Notes under the pieces: model-generated
The model's input: only the letters and a program-made list of their open reading frames with translations
Databases searched by the model: none
Told to the model about the DNA's origin: nothing
Shown: one piece after another, positions 20,816 through 38,545 of the stretch
How positions within the stretch are numbered: the first letter of the stretch is position 1
Layout: every line of letters starts with the position of its first letter
Origin: Candidatus Pelagibacterales bacterium
Lineage (GTDB): Bacteria; Pseudomonadota; Alphaproteobacteria; TMED109
Reading direction: 5' to 3'
NCBI GenBank assembly: GCA_002715505.1
Contig: PAZF01000018.1
Location: forward strand, 1-46,955
Length of the DNA stretch: 46,955 nucleotides
Program-made: the position numbers and the translations under genes

Positions 20816-22108
20816 ATGACACACTTTAAACTTAAAAATGAAAAAATAGCAATAATAGGAGGAGGTATTTCCGGAATATCCGCAGCATATTTTCTATCCA
20901 AGGATTATAATATAAGCTTATATGAAAAAGAAGGTGATCTTGGAGGGCATGCTATTACTTTGGGAAAAGAGTTAGAAATAAACAATAAAAAAACAAAAAA
21001 AATTTTTTTTGATATAGGCTTTTTGGTGTATAATACTAAAAATTATCCTCATTTTTCAAAACTACTAAATGATATCTCAGTAAAAACAGAAAAAAGTAAT
21101 ATGTCATTCTCAGTAAATAACAATTATTCTAAATTTGAATATGGTAGTACAGGAATATTATCCATAACTAATAATTTTAAAAATTTATTTTCATCCCAAT
21201 TCTGGAGTATTTTATTTGATATTTTAAAATTTTATAAGCAATCAAAAAAATTCTTACTAAATGAAAACCAAGAAATTTCTTTAGGAGATTTTTTGAATTC
21301 AAATCATTTTAATGAATCTTTAATACATAATCATATTATACCAATGTGCGGAGCAATTTGGTCTACTTCTACCAAGCAAGTATTAAACATGCCAGCAAAA
21401 TATATATTAAACTTTTTAGATAATCATGGGTTACTGAATTTGTTTAAGAGGCCTGAATGGAGAACTATTTCTTATGGAAGTAAAAATTATGTCAGAAAAC
21501 TAGAAAAGAATATAAAAGGATTAATATACAAAAATGAGAAAGTTGTTAAAGTTAAGAGAAGAAATAATAAAGTTTATGTTTTAAGTGAAAACTTTACAAA
21601 GGCATATGATAAAATAATATTTGCCGTACATGCAGATGATATTTTAAAAATTTTAGATAAACCAACTGATAGTGAAAAGAAACTGTTTTCTAAATATACA
21701 TATGAAGACAATTTAGTTTTTGTTCATCAAGACACTGCTTTAATGCCCAAAAATAAAAATGTTTGGTCATCTTGGAATGTAATTATTAATAATAAAAAAA
21801 GTAGTTCTAATCAAGCCATATGTGTTACTTATTGGATAAACAACTTGCAAAACTTTACTACAAAAAATCCTGTATTAGTTACCTTAAACCCTCCTAAGAA
21901 ACTAAATATTGATAAAAAAAAGTTATTAAAAAAGTTAAAACTTAAACACCCCTTGCTGAAAGAAAAACATTTTTCATTATCGAAAGAAGTAAAAAAACTG
22001 CAAGGAGATAACATGACCTTTTATACTGGAGCATGGCTTGGCTACGGATTTCATGAAGATGGTCTTAAATCATCAATAAATATTAGAAATTTATTATCTG
22101 CAGAGTAA
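20816..22108 (+). CDS. FAD-dependent amine-oxidase-like protein (COG2907) of the ChrR/RpoE lipid cluster
   Basis: A 430-residue flavoprotein. It opens with the dinucleotide-binding IAIIGGGISGISAAYFLS, then YEKEGDLGGHAIT, the family-typical FDIGFLVYNTKNYPHF, PMCGAIWSTSTKQVLNMPA and the C-terminal FYTGAWLGYGFHEDGLKSS. This family is found next to cyclopropane-synthase-like methyltransferases and DUF1365 in sigma-E/ChrR loci. In Rhodobacter such loci include the furan-fatty-acid genes ufaM, ufaD and ufaO, so a fatty-acyl desaturation role is possible. TATTAT ends 5 nt before the ATG and no Shine-Dalgarno site is seen. First of four co-oriented genes. Confidence 0.88.
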   Translation: MTHFKLKNEKIAIIGGGISGISAAYFLSKDYNISLYEKEGDLGGHAITLGKELEINNKKTKKIFFDIGFLVYNTKNYPHFSKLLNDISVKTEKSNMSFSVNNNYSKFEYGSTGILSITNNFKNLFSSQFWSILFDILKFYKQSKKFLLNENQEISLGDFLNSNHFNESLIHNHIIPMCGAIWSTSTKQVLNMPAKYILNFLDNHGLLNLFKRPEWRTISYGSKNYVRKLEKNIKGLIYKNEKVVKVKRRNNKVYVLSENFTKAYDKIIFAVHADDILKILDKPTDSEKKLFSKYTYEDNLVFVHQDTALMPKNKNVWSSWNVIINNKKSSSNQAICVTYWINNLQNFTTKNPVLVTLNPPKKLNIDKKKLLKKLKLKHPLLKEKHFSLSKEVKKLQGDNMTFYTGAWLGYGFHEDGLKSSINIRNLLSAE

Positions 22109-22112
22109 AAGT

Positions 22113-22907
22113 ATGCCAAAGTATGAAAACATAGAATTTGATAATTGTTTATACGAAGGAAAAGTTCACCATTCTAGAGTTTATCCTAAAAGTCATCATT
22201 TTAATTATAATGTTTTTTGTATTAATTTTGATTTATGTAAAATTAATAAAGTATTTAAAAAAATTTCAATCTTTTCTATTAATAAGTTTAATTTATTTTC
22301 TTTTTACTATAAGGATCATGGTCCAAATAATTGTAAAAATCTTGAAAAATGGGTAAAAAATACAATTAGAAATACGGGAGTCAAAGAAAAAATAGAGTCT
22401 ATTTTTGTTCTAGCTTATCCAAGAATTTTAGGTTATGTATTTAATCCTCTTTCTATATATAGTTGTTTAGATAAAAATAATAATATAATTGCTCAAATTT
22501 ATGAAGTTCATAATACTTTTAAGCAGAGATATTTTTATATAACTAAAAATACATTTGAATTAAAAAATCATAAAAATAATATTCATAAAGCATTTCATGT
22601 TTCTCCATTTATGGGAATGAAAGGGAAATATAATTTTAAAAGCTTCATGAATGATAAAACGCTATCTATTTTCATAGAATTTTTATCTGAAAAAGAAAAG
22701 TTGATAGCATCTTTTACGGCAAAAAAAAAGAACCTATCTACTCCAAGATTACTATTAAACTTTATTAAATATCCTTTAATGACAACAAAAGTAATTTTAG
22801 GTATACATTTAGAAGCTATATTTTTATATGCTAAAGGCTTAAAAATATTTAAATGTCCTGTGCCATCCTCAAAAAATACTAGTAACTTTTTAGGAAAAAG
22901 AAAATGA
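22113..22907 (+). CDS. DUF1365 protein of the ChrR/RpoE lipid cluster
   Basis: A 264-residue DUF1365 member. It starts with LYEGKVHHSRVYPKSHHFNY and continues with LAYPRILGYVFNPLSIYSCL, YEVHNTFKQRYFY, FHVSPFMGMKGKYNF and a C-terminal IHLEAIFLYAKGLKIF. It is 4 nt after the flavoprotein gene and overlaps the methyltransferase gene by 4 nt (22904-22907). The family's chemistry is not firmly known to me. Its constant company with CFA-type methyltransferases points to lipid acyl-chain modification, and an oxygen-inserting UfaO-like role is one possibility (inference). No clear membrane segment or signal peptide. Confidence 0.87.
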   Translation: MPKYENIEFDNCLYEGKVHHSRVYPKSHHFNYNVFCINFDLCKINKVFKKISIFSINKFNLFSFYYKDHGPNNCKNLEKWVKNTIRNTGVKEKIESIFVLAYPRILGYVFNPLSIYSCLDKNNNIIAQIYEVHNTFKQRYFYITKNTFELKNHKNNIHKAFHVSPFMGMKGKYNFKSFMNDKTLSIFIEFLSEKEKLIASFTAKKKNLSTPRLLLNFIKYPLMTTKVILGIHLEAIFLYAKGLKIFKCPVPSSKNTSNFLGKRK

Positions 22908-24073
22908 ATTTTGTTTATAGAATTATTGCCAAATTTATAATTGGTAGAGCGACTTATAATTTTAAAGGAAATCTAACAATCATATTTCCTAATAAAGAAA
23001 AATACACTATAGGAACAAAAAAATCAAAATACTATTTCAAAATTATAAATAATTTCATTTTTATTAGAGTCATTTTACAAGGAATTTCTGGTATCAGTTA
23101 TGCGTACAGCAAAGGCGAATGGACTACAAATAATCTATCACACATAATAAAGCTAGGAATCATTAACAAAAATAGTATTAAGAGTCTAAAAATAAATGAG
23201 AGTTTTTTAACTAGATTTAAGAAAATATTCTATACAAATAATAATACTGTTTCTAAAAGCAAAAAACAAATTAGTTTTCACTATGACCTAGGTAACAATT
23301 TTTACAAATATTGGTTAGATAAAAGCATGACTTATTCTAGTGGTATTTTTGGCAACAAAAATCTTACATTAGAAAATGCTCAAACTAATAAATATCAAAG
23401 TTTAGTAAAACTAGCAGAGATTAACAAAGATAATTCAGTCCTTGAAATAGGATGTGGCTGGGGTGGCTTTGCTAATTATGTATCCGAGAATATTGGATCA
23501 AAAATAACTGGAATTACAATCTCAAAAAATCAGTATAACTATGCCAATAGTATTAGAAAAAAAAATGTTATTATTAAACTTCTTGATTATAGAAAAATTA
23601 ACAAGGTATATGACAAAATTATATCAATAGAAATGTTCGAAGCAGTAGGTAAAAAAAACTGGAATAATTTTTTTAAAATTTTAGATCAAAGCCTTAAAAG
23701 CAAGGGGCTTGCAGCGTTACAAATTATTACTATTAATGAAAAACTATATGATAGTTATGAAAAAAATAAAGACTTTATTCAAAAGTATATCTTTCCAGGA
23801 GGAATGTTGCCAACTAAGAATATTATTTATACATTGGCTGATAATAATAATTTGTATGTCTGTAAAGAAAAATCATTAAGTACAGACTATGCAAAAACAT
23901 TATATATATGGAGAAGAAATTTTCTCAGCAAATGGAATAGAATTGAAAAAATGGGCTTTAAAAATGATTTCAAAAGACTATGGGAATATTATCTAATTTA
24001 TTGTGAAGAAGGTTTTAAAGCAGGAACTATCAATGTGCACCAGTTTTTATTAAAGAAAATAAATGATCAATAA
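22904..24073 (+). CDS. Cyclopropane-fatty-acyl-phospholipid synthase family methyltransferase
   Basis: A 389-residue SAM-dependent enzyme. The N-terminal domain has SKGEWTTNNLSHIIKL, which binds lipid in CFA synthases. It is followed by FHYDLGNNFYKYWLDKSMTYSSG (split: HYDLGNNFYKYWLD and MTYSSGIF), the SAM-binding VLEIGCGWGGFANYVS, IEMFEAVGKKNW and QKYIFPGGMLPT. It adds a methylene or methyl carbon across a cis double bond of membrane acyl chains. In RpoE/ChrR loci a relative, UfaM, makes the methylated precursor of furan fatty acids, so either product is possible. It overlaps DUF1365 by 4 nt and DUF3833 by 11 nt. Confidence 0.9.
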   Translation: MNFVYRIIAKFIIGRATYNFKGNLTIIFPNKEKYTIGTKKSKYYFKIINNFIFIRVILQGISGISYAYSKGEWTTNNLSHIIKLGIINKNSIKSLKINESFLTRFKKIFYTNNNTVSKSKKQISFHYDLGNNFYKYWLDKSMTYSSGIFGNKNLTLENAQTNKYQSLVKLAEINKDNSVLEIGCGWGGFANYVSENIGSKITGITISKNQYNYANSIRKKNVIIKLLDYRKINKVYDKIISIEMFEAVGKKNWNNFFKILDQSLKSKGLAALQIITINEKLYDSYEKNKDFIQKYIFPGGMLPTKNIIYTLADNNNLYVCKEKSLSTDYAKTLYIWRRNFLSKWNRIEKMGFKNDFKRLWEYYLIYCEEGFKAGTINVHQFLLKKINDQ

Positions 24074-24527
24074 AAGTAATAAATCATTAAATTTAGATTT
24101 TGAAGAATTTTTTTCTGGGAAAGTTGTGGCAAAAGGAAACATGATATTACACTATCCTAAAAAATCCATAAAAGATTTAGATATAACTTTTAAGGGTTTC
24201 TTAAAAAATAATCAGCTAAAATTAACAGAATACTATTCAGAAAATAATAAAAAAACAATAAGAAATTGGAAGTTTAAAAAATTAACAAATAATTTATTTC
24301 ATGGTACTGAAAAAAATGTAAAAGGAAATATAGTAGTAAACATAGAAAAAAATAGACTTTCTATGAATTATTATTTTAAATTAATGTTGTGGAATTTTAC
24401 TTTTACTGTATTGGTAAAAGATTATATGTACTTAGTTGGAAAAAATGAAATTATAAATATTACTTATGTTAGCAAGTTTGGTATAAAGTTAGCTAAGGTT
24501 ATTTTGCTATACAAGAAAAAATCATAA
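24063..24527 (+). CDS. DUF3833 family protein
   Basis: The 154 residues begin LDLDFEEFFSG-like: NLDFEEFFSGKVVAKG, then FKGFLKNNQLKLTEYYSE and WNFTFTVLVKDYMYLVGKN, matching DUF3833. These proteins occur at the end of CFA/DUF1365/COG2907 operons, usually as small predicted periplasmic or lipid-associated proteins. No signal peptide is evident in this copy. The start overlaps the methyltransferase by 11 nt; a later start is not obvious because the family motif begins within the first ten residues. It collides with the SDR gene tail-to-tail (6-bp overlap). Biochemical function unknown. Confidence 0.8.
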   Translation: MINKSNKSLNLDFEEFFSGKVVAKGNMILHYPKKSIKDLDITFKGFLKNNQLKLTEYYSENNKKTIRNWKFKKLTNNLFHGTEKNVKGNIVVNIEKNRLSMNYYFKLMLWNFTFTVLVKDYMYLVGKNEIINITYVSKFGIKLAKVILLYKKKS

Positions 24528-25283
24528 TTTTTTTAGAAGCTTTGAAGTAAGTTTTAAGTACAAAAAATTTGGTAAAATTTTAAGAATTTTCATAAAATAA
24601 CAAAATAATTTAGGAAATACTATTTCAAAACTTTTTGTATTTAAAAGTTTATCATAAATAATATTACCTGCAGTTTCAGAAGAAATTATCATTGGCATCT
24701 TGAATTTGTTTTTATCTGTTAAAGGGGTCTTAACAAAACCTGGGCATATGACTCTTACATTTATTCCTTTCTCATAACATTGATTATAAATTGCCTCTGC
24801 AAAGCTTATTAAACCTGCCTTAGAAGAACAATAAGCAGCAGCATAAGGTAAGCCTCTATATCCTGCCACGGAAGACATTATTACTAATTGGGTAGATCTT
24901 TTCTTCTCTAAATGCGGTATTAATAAGTCTATACAATTTACTATTCCAAAAAAATTTACTTCAAATAACTTTTTAGTTTCCTTATAGCTTGCTATATTTT
25001 TTGAATTAGGATTGTTAGTTCCTGCATTTAGAAAAACTATATCTGGTATCCCATATTTATCAATAATTTTCTCAATATTTTTTTTACAAGCTAGTTGATT
25101 AGTTATATCAAGTTTCACTGGTTCAATTTTAAGATTTTTTTTAGCAGTCTTAATAGACAAAGCTTTTAATGCCTTGAAATTTCTTGAACAAGCTATGACT
25201 TTCCAATTATTTTGGAAAAATGATAGTGCAGTATGTTTTCCTATTCCTGAAGATGCTCCTACTATTAGTATAGTAGAATGCAT
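24522..25283 (-). CDS. SDR-family oxidoreductase co-transcribed with chrR-rpoE
   Basis: A 253-residue SDR with ILIVGASSGIGKHTALSF, VFLNAGTNNPNS, VIMSSVAGYRGLPYAAAYCSSKAG (read as VIMSSVAGYRGLPYA and AYCSSKAG) and VICPGFVKTPLTDKN. It resembles the fatty-acyl/ketosteroid-type SDRs seen in ChrR/RpoE-CFA loci. It starts at a TAATG overlap with the chrR stop, so it is the third gene of a tight rpoE-chrR-SDR unit and should be induced with the stress sigma factor. The substrate is unknown; a lipid-derived carbonyl is a reasonable guess. Confidence 0.85.
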   Translation of the reverse strand: MHSTILIVGASSGIGKHTALSFFQNNWKVIACSRNFKALKALSIKTAKKNLKIEPVKLDITNQLACKKNIEKIIDKYGIPDIVFLNAGTNNPNSKNIASYKETKKLFEVNFFGIVNCIDLLIPHLEKKRSTQLVIMSSVAGYRGLPYAAAYCSSKAGLISFAEAIYNQCYEKGINVRVICPGFVKTPLTDKNKFKMPMIISSETAGNIIYDKLLNTKSFEIVFPKLFCYFMKILKILPNFLYLKLTSKLLKKL

Positions 25284-25957
25284 TAAAATTTAGAAAAGTT
25301 AAGTATAGAACCTAATAAACCTTTAAATTTAAGTGATCCACTATAAATAACGAGACACAAACATCCTGTTTCTTGAGAGGAAATAGGACTGTGTTCTTCA
25401 TCTCCACTTAAAATGACTAAGTCCCCCTTATTATATTCTCCCGATTCATCAGAATATCCTCCATAAAAGACCATTGTAGCTTCAAGTCCTTCATGGCTAT
25501 GTTTTGGCATTGACTTGCCCGGAGGAATTTGTAACATTTTTCCTTTATAACTATCATCTTTAAAACTTAGGTTGAAATATTTGACATTATTAATAGTAGA
25601 GCTCCAATTATCGGTATTACTGTTATCTAAATAACGATGAAGAAAAGATGGGATTCTAATGCTTTCTTTAGATAAACTTGTTTTTACCTTGTGATCAACA
25701 TAATTAGTAGTTTTATCATCCTGATCTAAATTATCTAATTTTTCTACCAAGTTATTCCATAATGATTTACTAACATTAAGTTCTTCATGATTTTTAAGGT
25801 AGAAACCTCCAATACTTTCATATTTAGCTACTTCTGCTTTACAGGTAGGGCAATATGTAATGTGGCTAGAAATTATTAAAGATTCAGCTTCTTTGCTATT
25901 TCCCATTGCATAATTTAGCAACATTTCACTATTTGGATGATTTTTAATCTGACACAT
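25283..25957 (-). CDS. chrR: ChrR-type zinc anti-sigma factor
   Basis: A 224-residue cytoplasmic anti-sigma factor that holds RpoE until singlet oxygen or related stress. The N-terminal ZAS domain has His7, His32, Cys36 and Cys39 (HITYCPTC), each one residue later than the zinc ligands of Rhodobacter ChrR (H6, H31, C35, C38). The C-terminal cupin-like domain keeps the HxHxxxE metal set in MPKHSHEGLEATMVF and the later His in GDEEHSP. All known metal ligands are therefore intact. It is joined to rpoE and to the SDR by 1-nt TAATG overlaps at both ends. Confidence 0.93.
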   Translation of the reverse strand: MCQIKNHPNSEMLLNYAMGNSKEAESLIISSHITYCPTCKAEVAKYESIGGFYLKNHEELNVSKSLWNNLVEKLDNLDQDDKTTNYVDHKVKTSLSKESIRIPSFLHRYLDNSNTDNWSSTINNVKYFNLSFKDDSYKGKMLQIPPGKSMPKHSHEGLEATMVFYGGYSDESGEYNKGDLVILSGDEEHSPISSQETGCLCLVIYSGSLKFKGLLGSILNFSKF

Positions 25958-26568
25958 TAATTCAACTCCACTAGATTTTTCATTTTAGATAAAGCTAACC
26001 TTATTCTAGACTTAACAGTTCCCAAGGGAATATTAAGGTCGTTAGCTATGTCAGTATGAGTTTTTTCATAAAAATAAGATTGTTTTAAAAGTTCAGCTTG
26101 TTCTTGAGGTAGAAATTTGAGTGTGTTAGTTATTTTTGTAGACAATTCGGAAGCTAATATCTCATCTTCTTGTTTTGAGGGAATTGGTATTTCAAGACTT
26201 TCATCGGAGTCAACTGCATAATGTTTCTTTTCTTTTCTAATTTTATCAATTCTTTTATTCTTAGCTATAGTATAAATCCAGGTACTTACTGAAGATTTTT
26301 CGCTATTATAAGTATTAGCTTTTGTCCAAACAGAAATCATTACTTCTTGAATAATTTCTTCCGCCTGAGTTTCTGTACAGCCTAATTTTACAAAAAAACT
26401 TTTTAGCCTAGGTGCAAAATACCTAAAAATACTTGAAAAGGCTCCCTTATCCTGATTTAAACCTATTTCTCTTAAGCAAGAAGATAAATCATTTTCTTTC
26501 AATCCAGGAGATTTCTTTGCAGTACTATGCCCCATTTTATTATCTATTATATTATTATAAAAATTCAT
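25957..26568 (-). CDS. rpoE: ECF sigma factor RpoE (ECF11/ChrR-regulated type)
   Basis: A 203-residue group IV sigma factor. Region 2 is FSSIFRYFAPRLKSFFVKLG followed by AEEIIQEVMISVWTKA and STWIYTIAKNKRIDKIRKEK. Region 4 is LPQEQAELLKQSYF, THTDIANDLNIPLGTVKSRI and RLALSKMK. With ChrR directly downstream this is the singlet-oxygen/photo-oxidative-stress sigma factor. The start is uncertain: MGHSTAKKSPG, 11 codons in, is an alternative. I did not find a clear TGATCC-type RpoE promoter in the spacer before the gene, nor before the facing flavoprotein or photolyase genes, so autoregulation is not shown here. Confidence 0.93.
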   Translation of the reverse strand: MNFYNNIIDNKMGHSTAKKSPGLKENDLSSCLREIGLNQDKGAFSSIFRYFAPRLKSFFVKLGCTETQAEEIIQEVMISVWTKANTYNSEKSSVSTWIYTIAKNKRIDKIRKEKKHYAVDSDESLEIPIPSKQEDEILASELSTKITNTLKFLPQEQAELLKQSYFYEKTHTDIANDLNIPLGTVKSRIRLALSKMKNLVELN

Positions 26569-26772
26569 TTTAATTACAATTCCAATATAATCAAGTATAC
26601 GTTAAACAAAGTGATATAGATTATATAGTATGGATTTTTAAAAAAATAAGCTTTTTTAAAAATGAACTTTAATTCACTGTAAATTATAAAATAATAATTA
26701 AAAAATTAAATTAAATAATATTAAGAAATTTGTGTATCAGACTTTTTCTTAAAATTAATCCAAAAAATATTT

Positions 26773-36142: not shown

Positions 36143-36826
36143 TTATTTTTTTATTAGTTTAAAGTAGTATATCATTTTTTTAATCATTAAAGGAAATATT
36201 CCTATTAAAAAAATTGAACACAATATCTTTAGACTGTATATGTCATTAAATGAACCTATTTTTGAAATTTGAGATCCTGCATTTACATATAAGAAAATTC
36301 CTGGCAACATTCCTATGAAAGAAATTAAATAAAATTTATAAGCAGAAATATTTGTTATACCAAACATAAAGTTTATAATGAAAAAAGGAAAAATTGGAGT
36401 CACTCTCAAAAAGAATAGGTAAAAAAGTCCATTTTCTTTTAATCCTTTATTTATTTTTTCAGCCTGGAGTTTGTACCTTTTCTCAATAAGACTTTTTAAA
36501 GTAAATCTGGCTAATAAAAAACTTACCAGAGCGCCTAAAGAAGCTCCTATACAAACTATTAAAATTGCATCAAAAAAAGTGAATAATGATCCTATGAAAA
36601 TCGATAATCCAGCGGAAAAAGGCAAGGAAAGAGCTGCTATTAAAAAGTAAGTTAAAAGAAAAAAGAAAAAATATAGAGCGTAATTTTGATCAACTTTTAG
36701 TTGTGCCTGCAAATAAGTTTTCCTCAAATAATTTAAAGAAAATAGATCATAATAAATTAACAATATTGTACTTAAAAGTATGGTTATAAGAACTGAAATT
36801 AAAAGTAAAATTTTAAATTTATTCAA
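36143..36826 (-). CDS. TVP38/TMEM64 (VTT-domain) membrane protein
   Basis: A 227-residue inner-membrane protein. It has the VTT core FSAGLSIFIGSLFTFFDAI, IGASLGALVSFLLARFTLKS and the FLRVTPIFPFFIINFMFG motif, followed by FIGMLPGIFLYVNAGSQ, all in the family's order. The role is uncertain; DedA-superfamily members act as lipid scramblases or transporters. The start is a TTG at 36826 that overlaps the stop of the DUF2256 gene by 4 nt (TTGA), indicating coupled translation. I see no in-frame ATG early enough to keep the first membrane segment. Confidence 0.85.
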   Translation of the reverse strand: MNKFKILLLISVLITILLSTILLIYYDLFSLNYLRKTYLQAQLKVDQNYALYFFFFLLTYFLIAALSLPFSAGLSIFIGSLFTFFDAILIVCIGASLGALVSFLLARFTLKSLIEKRYKLQAEKINKGLKENGLFYLFFLRVTPIFPFFIINFMFGITNISAYKFYLISFIGMLPGIFLYVNAGSQISKIGSFNDIYSLKILCSIFLIGIFPLMIKKMIYYFKLIKK

Positions 36827-36969
36827 TTAATTCTCTTATGATTGATTTTGCATTTTTTTGAACAATATAAGACATTTTCCCATTCATATTTCCATTTTTT
36901 TCTCCAATTAAATGGTCTTTGGCATTTCAAACAATTTTTAAATGGTAAGTTGCTTTTATTATATTTCAT
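36823..36969 (-). CDS. DUF2256 small zinc-ribbon-like protein
   Basis: A 48-residue ORF from the ATG at 36969 to the TGA at 36825-36823. The sequence has the DUF2256 pattern: LPFKNCLKCQRPFNWRKKW, then WENVLYCSKKCK, four cysteines in two CxxC/CxxxC pairs around a Trp/Arg-rich centre. DUF2256 genes usually sit directly beside cryptochrome/photolyase-related genes, as here (22 nt after the photolyase stop). A nucleic-acid or flavoprotein-associated zinc protein is plausible, but its function is not known to me. It overlaps the TVP38 start by 4 nt. Confidence 0.9.
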   Translation of the reverse strand: MKYNKSNLPFKNCLKCQRPFNWRKKWKYEWENVLYCSKKCKINHKRIN

Positions 36970-36991: not shown

Positions 36992-38476
36992 TTACTTGGA
37001 AGTAGTCCTTAATAAAAAATTCGTAGCAGCATTAAATATTCTTTCTTTTCTATCTGATTTCATGTTATCTACCATTTTAGTCATAATACCGAGTCTTGGG
37101 TTGTTTTTTAATTTTTCCCTTTTCTCATCAATAAACTTCCAATACAATCCATCAACTACATCAGTCCAGTCTCCTTTAGGATAATCTGACATTTTCAATA
37201 AGTAGCTTGAACCACAAATGTATGGTTTAGTAGAAAAAATTCCACCGTCACTGTATAAGCCCATACCAAAAACATTTGGTGCCATTACCCAATCAGAAGA
37301 ATCAACATAATGTTCCATAAACCACAGATATACCTCTTGTGGATCAATTCTAGATAAATTCATGATATTAGAAATTATCATTAATCTTTCTATGTGATGA
37401 TTGTATCCTATTTTTATGGCTTTTTTTATTGAATCATCTAATGGTGGAATACCTGTAGTTCCTTCATACCAACATTTCTTCATTCTTCTCTGGTTACCAA
37501 AATAATTACCATTTATGAGGGTATTTTCAAAATTTTGATAAATACCTCTAATAAATTCTCTCCATCCTATTATTTGCCTAATAAATCCTTCATAGGAATT
37601 AATCTTAATTTCATTTTTATATTTGGTTATTGTATCAATTAGCTCTTCAGGAGTAATTAAGCCTACATTTAGTAGAGGGCTCAAAGCACTGTGAAGTAAA
37701 AAATCATCTTTTTGAGAAATTGCGTCTTCATAATCTCCAAAAAGATTAAACTTATTTTTAATAAAATCATTTAGAAAAATAACACTAGCCTTTCTCGTGG
37801 TTGGCATCCAAATGTATTTCAAGCTCCCTACATGAGATGAAAATTTTTTTTGAATGATAGGAATTAGCTGTGAAGAGTATTTAGTCTGTTTAAAGCTCAT
37901 TATTTTAGGAATTTGGAAATTTTTTGGTATTTTCTTTCTATTTTCCTCATCGTAACTCCACTTACCTCCTTCAGGTTTTTTATTATTTATTAAAATATTA
38001 TTTGTAAGTCTACTAAATTTATAGAAAGAACCCATAAAAGGCTTTTTATCTTTAATAAAATTTGAAAATTCTTTTCTACTAAATAAAAACATAGGCGACT
38101 TTAAAAAAACTATTTTGAAGTCAGCCTTAAGGGAGTTAATTTTTTTTTCAAAAAATTTATCTTCAATTTCATAAAAAAATAAATCTGTATAGTTTTTCTT
38201 TTTAGCAAACTTACTAACCTTTTCTATGTAGTCTTCTTTAAACTCTTTATCTTCGATTGAAGAATAATGAACAGTTGCCCCCAGATCAATCAATTCATCT
38301 TTAAAGGATCTCATGGAAGATAAGGTATGTAATATTTTTAACTTATGATGTTTGTAAAAAGTACATAATCCATAATCCTCACAAATATAAAAATCACAAT
38401 CCAAATGATTTTTTAAATATTTCTTAGGATTAAAAAGTTGGTTGCCCAAAATAATAAATAATGATTTTTTTTTCAT
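36992..38476 (-). CDS. Cryptochrome/photolyase-related protein (COG3046 type), lacking the Fe-S cysteines
   Basis: 494 residues. The N-terminal photolyase-related domain starts SLFIILGNQLFNPKKYL and binds an antenna chromophore in relatives. The FAD domain has IGWREFIRGIYQNF, GYNHHIERLMIISNIMNL, WFMEHYVDSSDWVMAPNVFG, MGLYSDGGIFSTKPYICGSS and GLYWKFI. In prokaryotic (6-4) photolyases of the PhrB type, four cysteines bind a 4Fe-4S cluster. Here the segment after KMSDY reads PKGDWTDVVDGLYW and has none of the three clustered cysteines, nor the expected upstream one. It would repair UV photoproducts or sense light. The gene is typical of ChrR/RpoE loci but lies 10 kb from rpoE here. Confidence 0.88.
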   Translation of the reverse strand: MKKKSLFIILGNQLFNPKKYLKNHLDCDFYICEDYGLCTFYKHHKLKILHTLSSMRSFKDELIDLGATVHYSSIEDKEFKEDYIEKVSKFAKKKNYTDLFFYEIEDKFFEKKINSLKADFKIVFLKSPMFLFSRKEFSNFIKDKKPFMGSFYKFSRLTNNILINNKKPEGGKWSYDEENRKKIPKNFQIPKIMSFKQTKYSSQLIPIIQKKFSSHVGSLKYIWMPTTRKASVIFLNDFIKNKFNLFGDYEDAISQKDDFLLHSALSPLLNVGLITPEELIDTITKYKNEIKINSYEGFIRQIIGWREFIRGIYQNFENTLINGNYFGNQRRMKKCWYEGTTGIPPLDDSIKKAIKIGYNHHIERLMIISNIMNLSRIDPQEVYLWFMEHYVDSSDWVMAPNVFGMGLYSDGGIFSTKPYICGSSYLLKMSDYPKGDWTDVVDGLYWKFIDEKREKLKNNPRLGIMTKMVDNMKSDRKERIFNAATNFLLRTTSK

Positions 38477-38545
38477 TTAAAACATTTTATATTGATTTGT
38501 ATTCGTAAATACATATTGTATAGATTAATTAATTTTATTTTCAAT

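Follow-up and report, generated by a model that had tools for sequence, protein, structure and literature searches.

In Rhodobacter sphaeroides, the available text of PMC7380195 identifies UfaM as RSP2144, UfaD as RSP1091 and UfaO as RSP1090, the last a protein with a DUF1365 domain, and gives RSP1087-1089 as dispensable for the furan acid. A core sigma-E/ChrR regulon containing these genes has already been described (available text of PMC6852236). The same source as for R. sphaeroides (PMC7380195) lists ufaD, ufaO and ufaM of Rhodopseudomonas palustris as consecutive by locus number (RPA2571-2569), and FufM for a dimethyl furan acid; in Halomonas sp. YLGW01 ufaM, ufaD and ufaO are likewise consecutive, and a separate cfa gene is present (available text of PMC12089945). 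The locus investigated here occupies positions 20816-26568 of contig PAZF01000018.1 (assembly GCA_002715505.1, Candidatus Pelagibacterales bacterium), a stretch of 46,955 nucleotides that is called, in its full length, the window below. Judged from its sequence, this locus is very probably a furan fatty acid (FuFA) operon standing beside its singlet-oxygen sensor. For this organism we infer the reactions, the furan product and the stress response. The gene set looks ordinary and of a kind already known, and the switch and the starting fat look partly unlike those of the laboratory model.

Seven intact genes were found at 20816-26568, four on the plus strand converging on SDR-chrR-rpoE, and the coordinates and gene order given in a preliminary description of this DNA were correct. 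That description had drawn a parallel to the Rhodobacter sigma-E/ChrR-ufa region and had been unsure which genes equal UfaD and UfaO. The ChrR of Cereibacter johrii shares 96% identity with the R. sphaeroides ChrR of the PDB, and this species was used as proxy for R. sphaeroides in pairwise comparisons, which bore out the parallel, with counterparts of UfaD, UfaO, UfaM, RSP1087 and RSP1088, and settled the assignment: UfaD is represented by the flavin adenine dinucleotide (FAD) oxidase, UfaO by the DUF1365 protein and UfaM by the CMAS enzyme. The FAD oxidoreductase (20816-22108, plus strand, 430 aa; a NAD_binding_8/DAO flavoprotein), predicted to desaturate the acyl chain once it is methylated, was 28.9% identical to the RSP1091 counterpart over 408 aa, with the FAD motif kept. 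Among its PDB matches were LkcE (E 5e-23) and the flavoprotein 2b9w (E 7e-7), which we take to be a fatty acid isomerase. The DUF1365 protein (22113-22907, plus strand, 264 aa; PF07103 225.5 bits, cut-off 25), a predicted O2-dependent furan-forming enzyme, showed 26.5% identity to the RSP1090 counterpart over 249 aa. The third gene (22904-24073, plus strand, 389 aa; CMAS 254.9 bits, cut-off 27) encodes a predicted S-adenosylmethionine (SAM)-dependent fatty-acyl methylase and was 35.5% identical to C. johrii UfaM over 372 aa (265 bits). C. johrii UfaM was the sole CMAS match in the search of its genome; it adjoins a photolyase gene, as the numbering RSP2143-2144 implies for R. sphaeroides (table in the available text of PMC5507510), and was taken as the RSP2144 counterpart. 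The conserved residues of all three Ufa enzymes are retained in the window.

The remaining genes also had counterparts in C. johrii. The DUF3833 protein (24063-24527, plus strand, 154 aa; 91 bits, cut-off 25) was 21.3% identical to the RSP1088 counterpart over 150 aa, and the short-chain dehydrogenase (SDR; 24522-25283, minus strand, 253 aa; adh_short 152.6 bits) was 30.0% identical to the RSP1087 counterpart over 233 aa. The anti-sigma factor ChrR (25283-25957, minus strand, 224 aa; cupin PF12973 48.8 bits, TIGR02451 159 bits, cut-off 124.5) and RpoE (25957-26568, minus strand, 203 aa; sigma-70 regions 2 and 4), a sigma factor of type ECF11 (extracytoplasmic function), showed 25.2% identity over 218 aa and 35.8% over 176 aa, respectively. 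The best PDB match of RpoE was R. sphaeroides RpoE with 125 bits, the next best reaching 65. Genes on the same strand overlap or almost abut, and the last genes of the two strands share 6 bases. The locus resembles RSP1087-1093 and RSP2144 of R. sphaeroides in its UfaD, UfaO, UfaM, RSP1088, RSP1087, RpoE and ChrR counterparts and in an ECF11 promoter at rpoE, but differs in that ufaM lies inside the operon, the operons converge instead of diverging, and the block has neither an RSP1089 counterpart nor an ECF11 site at ufaD. The three ufa genes are consecutive, as in R. palustris and Halomonas. In contrast to the FufM of the former and the separate cfa gene of the latter, a single CMAS match was obtained in the window's genome and a second CMAS-type gene (FufM) was not found, so a monomethyl product alone is expected.

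In the proposed pathway, UfaM would use SAM to methylate a phospholipid acyl chain that has one double bond, with no closure of a cyclopropane ring, UfaD would add a second, conjugated double bond and UfaO would insert an O2-derived oxygen, giving a furan ring able to quench singlet oxygen. ChrR would keep RpoE inactive until photo-oxidative stress, and the released RpoE would drive rpoE-chrR-SDR from a promoter at 26598-26623.

To follow the block through relatives, 28 genomes of the same order were searched for DUF1365 and ChrR. DUF1365 was found in 15 of the 28 genomes and ChrR in 16, two of the latter being weak matches (36-47 bits); 13 genomes had both, with a strong ChrR. The entire convergent block was present in 11 of the 14 regions of relatives, so the arrangement is not due to chance; two of the other three are cut by a contig end (L109 and L112). 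The third, L099 of genome G024, carries ufaD-ufaO-ufaM and no rpoE-chrR on its contig. In genome G007, rpoE-chrR-SDR-DUF3833-ufaM was observed at a contig end, and in G006 (same genus, 91% complete) neither DUF1365 nor ChrR was found. In Rhodobacterales, the same genes are mostly divergent from rpoE.

The preliminary description had stated that all ChrR metal ligands are kept, and this was confirmed. Residues H7, H32, C36, C39, H153, H155, E159 and H189 of the window align with H6, H31, C35, C38, H141, H143, E147 and H177 of R. sphaeroides and were invariant in 14 of 14 sequences; both the HHCC zinc site and the HHEH cupin site are therefore intact. The equivalents of C187 and C189 of ChrR were also kept in all 14 sequences. 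A sigma-E consensus based on chromatin immunoprecipitation, TGATCC-N16-CGTA, is given in the available text of PMC5507510, and similar sites are described for Shewanella (available text of PMC4336711). An exact site, TAATCT-N16-CGTA (26598-26623, minus strand), lies 29 bp before the start codon of the window's rpoE, as expected of an autoregulatory ECF11-type promoter. Both are in agreement with the pattern ATC[CT]-N16-CGTA derived here. With this pattern, sought up to 150 bp upstream and fixed after inspection of these same upstream regions in related genomes, so that the associated p-value is purely descriptive, sites were obtained before rpoE in 13 of 13 cases, before the class I photolyase gene that precedes rpoE in five of five, before ufaD in three of 14 and before other genes in none of 160. 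Across these loci the pattern matched 25 times and its reversed form 20 times; the rpoE, photolyase and ufaD sites account for 20 of the pattern's matches (window site excluded). Among the divergent ufaD/rpoE loci of Rhodobacterales, 58 of 70 had the site in both directions.

Several observations weigh against the reading of the locus as a FuFA operon beside its sensor. The identities of UfaD, UfaO and UfaM to the tested enzymes, represented by the C. johrii stand-ins, are low (26-36%). An ECF11 site was not found within 500 bp upstream of the window's ufaD, where the best score was 5.7 (upstream regions of other genes: 95th percentile 9.3, maximum 15.1). FabA was not found in the window's genome, which is 97.6% complete; the best candidate was a FabZ-like gene whose 21.7 bits fall short of the cut-off (238), in a search that gave matches above the cut-off in two of 14 control genomes. 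No PF00487 desaturase was found in this genome either, other routes to unsaturation not having been searched.

The preliminary description had placed the fatty-acyl operon with the sigma-E/ChrR locus. Control by sigma-E is supported solely by the neighbourhood and by the promoters of sister genera, and not by a ufaD promoter in the window's own genome. In the ufaD regions of the sister genera g2 and g6 (n=7), three had an exact site, two a site with one mismatch and two a more altered -10 element, whereas the site before ufaD was missing from the window and likewise from five relatives (L100, L105, L106, L107 and L112). One alternative is that in the window's genus the fatty-acyl operon is expressed without sigma-E and has left the regulon, which would be compatible with furan chemistry; we regard it as a tentative but real possibility. 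Against it, the ufaD motif may be degenerate or may sit further upstream, and the convergent block stays intact across relatives, suggesting a continued link. Sigma-E control of the window's ufa operon is hence plausible by ancestry, as far as these promoter comparisons go.

A photolyase and a DUF2256 protein had also been mentioned, at a distance of 10 kb, as genes often belonging to such loci. The photolyase gene (36992-38476) and a Cys-rich open reading frame of 48 aa (36823-36969), DUF2256-like in appearance, are indeed present about 10 kb away; the photolyase is, however, of the DPRP type and is not the one of the regulon. The type linked to sigma-E is class I. In five g2/g6 relatives its gene immediately precedes rpoE and has a sigma-E-type site to itself; in the window's genome it is located on another contig (C5, L189). 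The window photolyase was considered as a regulon member and rejected: it has a site with one mismatch at 38502-38527, but no site matching the pattern was found in the seven relatives readable upstream (L176-L182), and it is of the DPRP type. Nor is the organism's own class I photolyase claimed as a sigma-E target, the only site there having one mismatch and lying 8 bp from the start.

As a separate observation, an exact search of the whole genome for RATCY-N16-CGTA gave 11 sites, and the reversed pattern 63. Besides the rpoE site, four of the 11 were located at most 60 bp before a same-strand gene (L165, L167, L169 and L174). The genes are lon and those of an HtrA/DegQ-like protease, a rubrerythrin and a FAD_binding_2 (sdhA-like) protein, which are candidates for additional sigma-E targets by virtue of these motifs.

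As neither FabA nor a PF00487 desaturase was found, the product need not equal the 9M5 acid of R. sphaeroides. The same negative results, together with the low identity that UfaD and UfaO show to the C. johrii proxies, are what could be said for a pathway that ends in, or branches off to, some other acyl product, methylated or oxygenated, from a substrate other than cis-vaccenate. Such a diversion is unlikely, given that none of the three Ufa enzymes has been lost, that they keep their conserved residues and that the ufa gene order is conserved across genera. The host of the proposed FuFA operon has a genome of 1.70 Mb in 31 contigs, in which a rhodopsin is encoded (163 bits); the VPL motif of this protein is followed by Gln, presumably the blue-absorbing tuning residue. 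The open reading frames in line beside the rhodopsin gene (L114:2628-7748) are, by their motifs, crtI-, crtB-, crtY- and Blh-like, and are assumed to be carotenoid/retinal genes. It is conceivable, though rather doubtful, that this rhodopsin bearer with its 1.7 Mb genome makes an undescribed furan isomer from a chain other than cis-vaccenate, by a constitutive synthesis freed from sigma-E. Complete FuFA gene sets are placed in alphaproteobacteria that have small genomes and a rhodopsin, and these may be a bacterial source of furan lipids beyond the bacteriochlorophyll phototrophs in which the pathway was worked out. In the accessible portions of the open-licence literature, furan fatty acids were not found in connection with proteorhodopsin, and with SAR11 only in work on dinoflagellate volatiles.

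To compare the methyltransferase with cyclopropane synthase, the active-site letters at Cfa positions 139, 239, 240, 266, 268 and 317 were read in 80 full-length rows, Cys139, His240 and Ile268 being numbered as we take them to stand in Cfa. The type S-E-A-Q-I-Y was found in 55 rows, among them the window and C. johrii UfaM, and C-E-H-H-I-Y in 18, among them the Cfa of E. coli, Lactobacillus and Aquifex; rarer types were A-E-A-Q-I-Y (5 rows), C-E-A-Q-I-Y (1) and C-E-H-H-F-Y (1), the last a distant sequence with UfaO nearby. Relative to Cfa, the window enzyme has C139 replaced by S, H240 by A and H266 by Q, while the equivalents of E239 and Y317 are kept. In E. coli Cfa, bicarbonate is bound by Glu239, His266 and Tyr317 (available text of PMC11387697), and the set in the window is E, Q and Y. 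A UfaD or UfaO gene was located within 4 kb of 53 of the 61 E-A-Q-type rows and of none of the 15 Cfa-type alphaproteobacterial rows, which had been hand-picked from lower-scoring CMAS matches and whose loci mostly span no more than about 3 kb. A quick tree was built from 46 of these 80 rows; in it, one change separated the two active-site types (SH-aLRT support 100), and the window enzyme grouped with C. johrii UfaM, apart from Cfa. A best match to canonical cyclopropane synthase with no Ufa homology, which the preliminary description had named as the result that would speak against it, was looked for and the opposite was obtained: membership of the UfaM clade, and 265 bits to UfaM, the two alphaproteobacterial Cfa compared scoring 187 and 181.

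The window methyltransferase shares with Cfa the family and the SAM site; judged by its residues and its separate clade, it is not a cyclopropane synthase. The alternative of a normal cyclopropane fatty acid synthase with neighbours acting on something else is highly improbable, for although Pfam and NCBIfam label the enzyme CMAS/cyclopropane synthase family and its best PDB matches are Cfa enzymes, it scores 257.9 bits where the Cfa cut-off of NCBIfam is 400, has Gln in place of the bicarbonate ligand His266 and falls in the UfaM clade. We infer that the loss of the bicarbonate site would steer the methylated cation to an alkene and not to a ring. According to the available text of PMC7791843, 10-methyl enzymes were selected with conservation of the bicarbonate site as a criterion; a non-cyclopropane product therefore does not in every case require that His266 be lost. 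The S-E-A-Q signature is not stated in the available text of that paper or of PMC12089945. Matches of CMAS type, of either kind, were present in 148 of the 192 genomes sampled from the class, which marks a common gene family; S-E-A-Q versus C-E-H-H offers a simple signature parting UfaM-type methylases, named cyclopropane synthases by family searches, from true Cfa. The relative G024 mentioned above (L083 and L099; genome of 3.6 Mb) has ufaD-ufaO and a methylase of the mixed signature C-E-A-Q-I-Y, with no rpoE-chrR nearby.

Structure models were inspected for UfaO and DUF3833. The UfaO model (pLDDT 82) consists of a barrel and a C-terminal helix. Foldseek gave no match at E 0.001, and the best VIA hit, to a protein resembling fatty-acid-binding protein (FABP), had Z 6.4 and a root-mean-square deviation (rmsd) of 4.2 over 136 aligned residues, so that no match is trustworthy; a calycin-like barrel is only suggested by the model, and a cofactor is not indicated. 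The DUF3833 protein of the window is without the N-terminal hydrophobic segment that its homologues have. Its model (pLDDT 92) matched 2o62 with VIA Z 15.7 and an rmsd of 2.9 over 133 aligned residues, and nitrobindins and spirocyclases with Z of about 13-15; a designed barrel scored equally, and the match supports the fold only. DUF3833 is thus predicted to form a FABP/calycin-like beta barrel, and would probably act as a small lipid-binding barrel in the same membrane chemistry.

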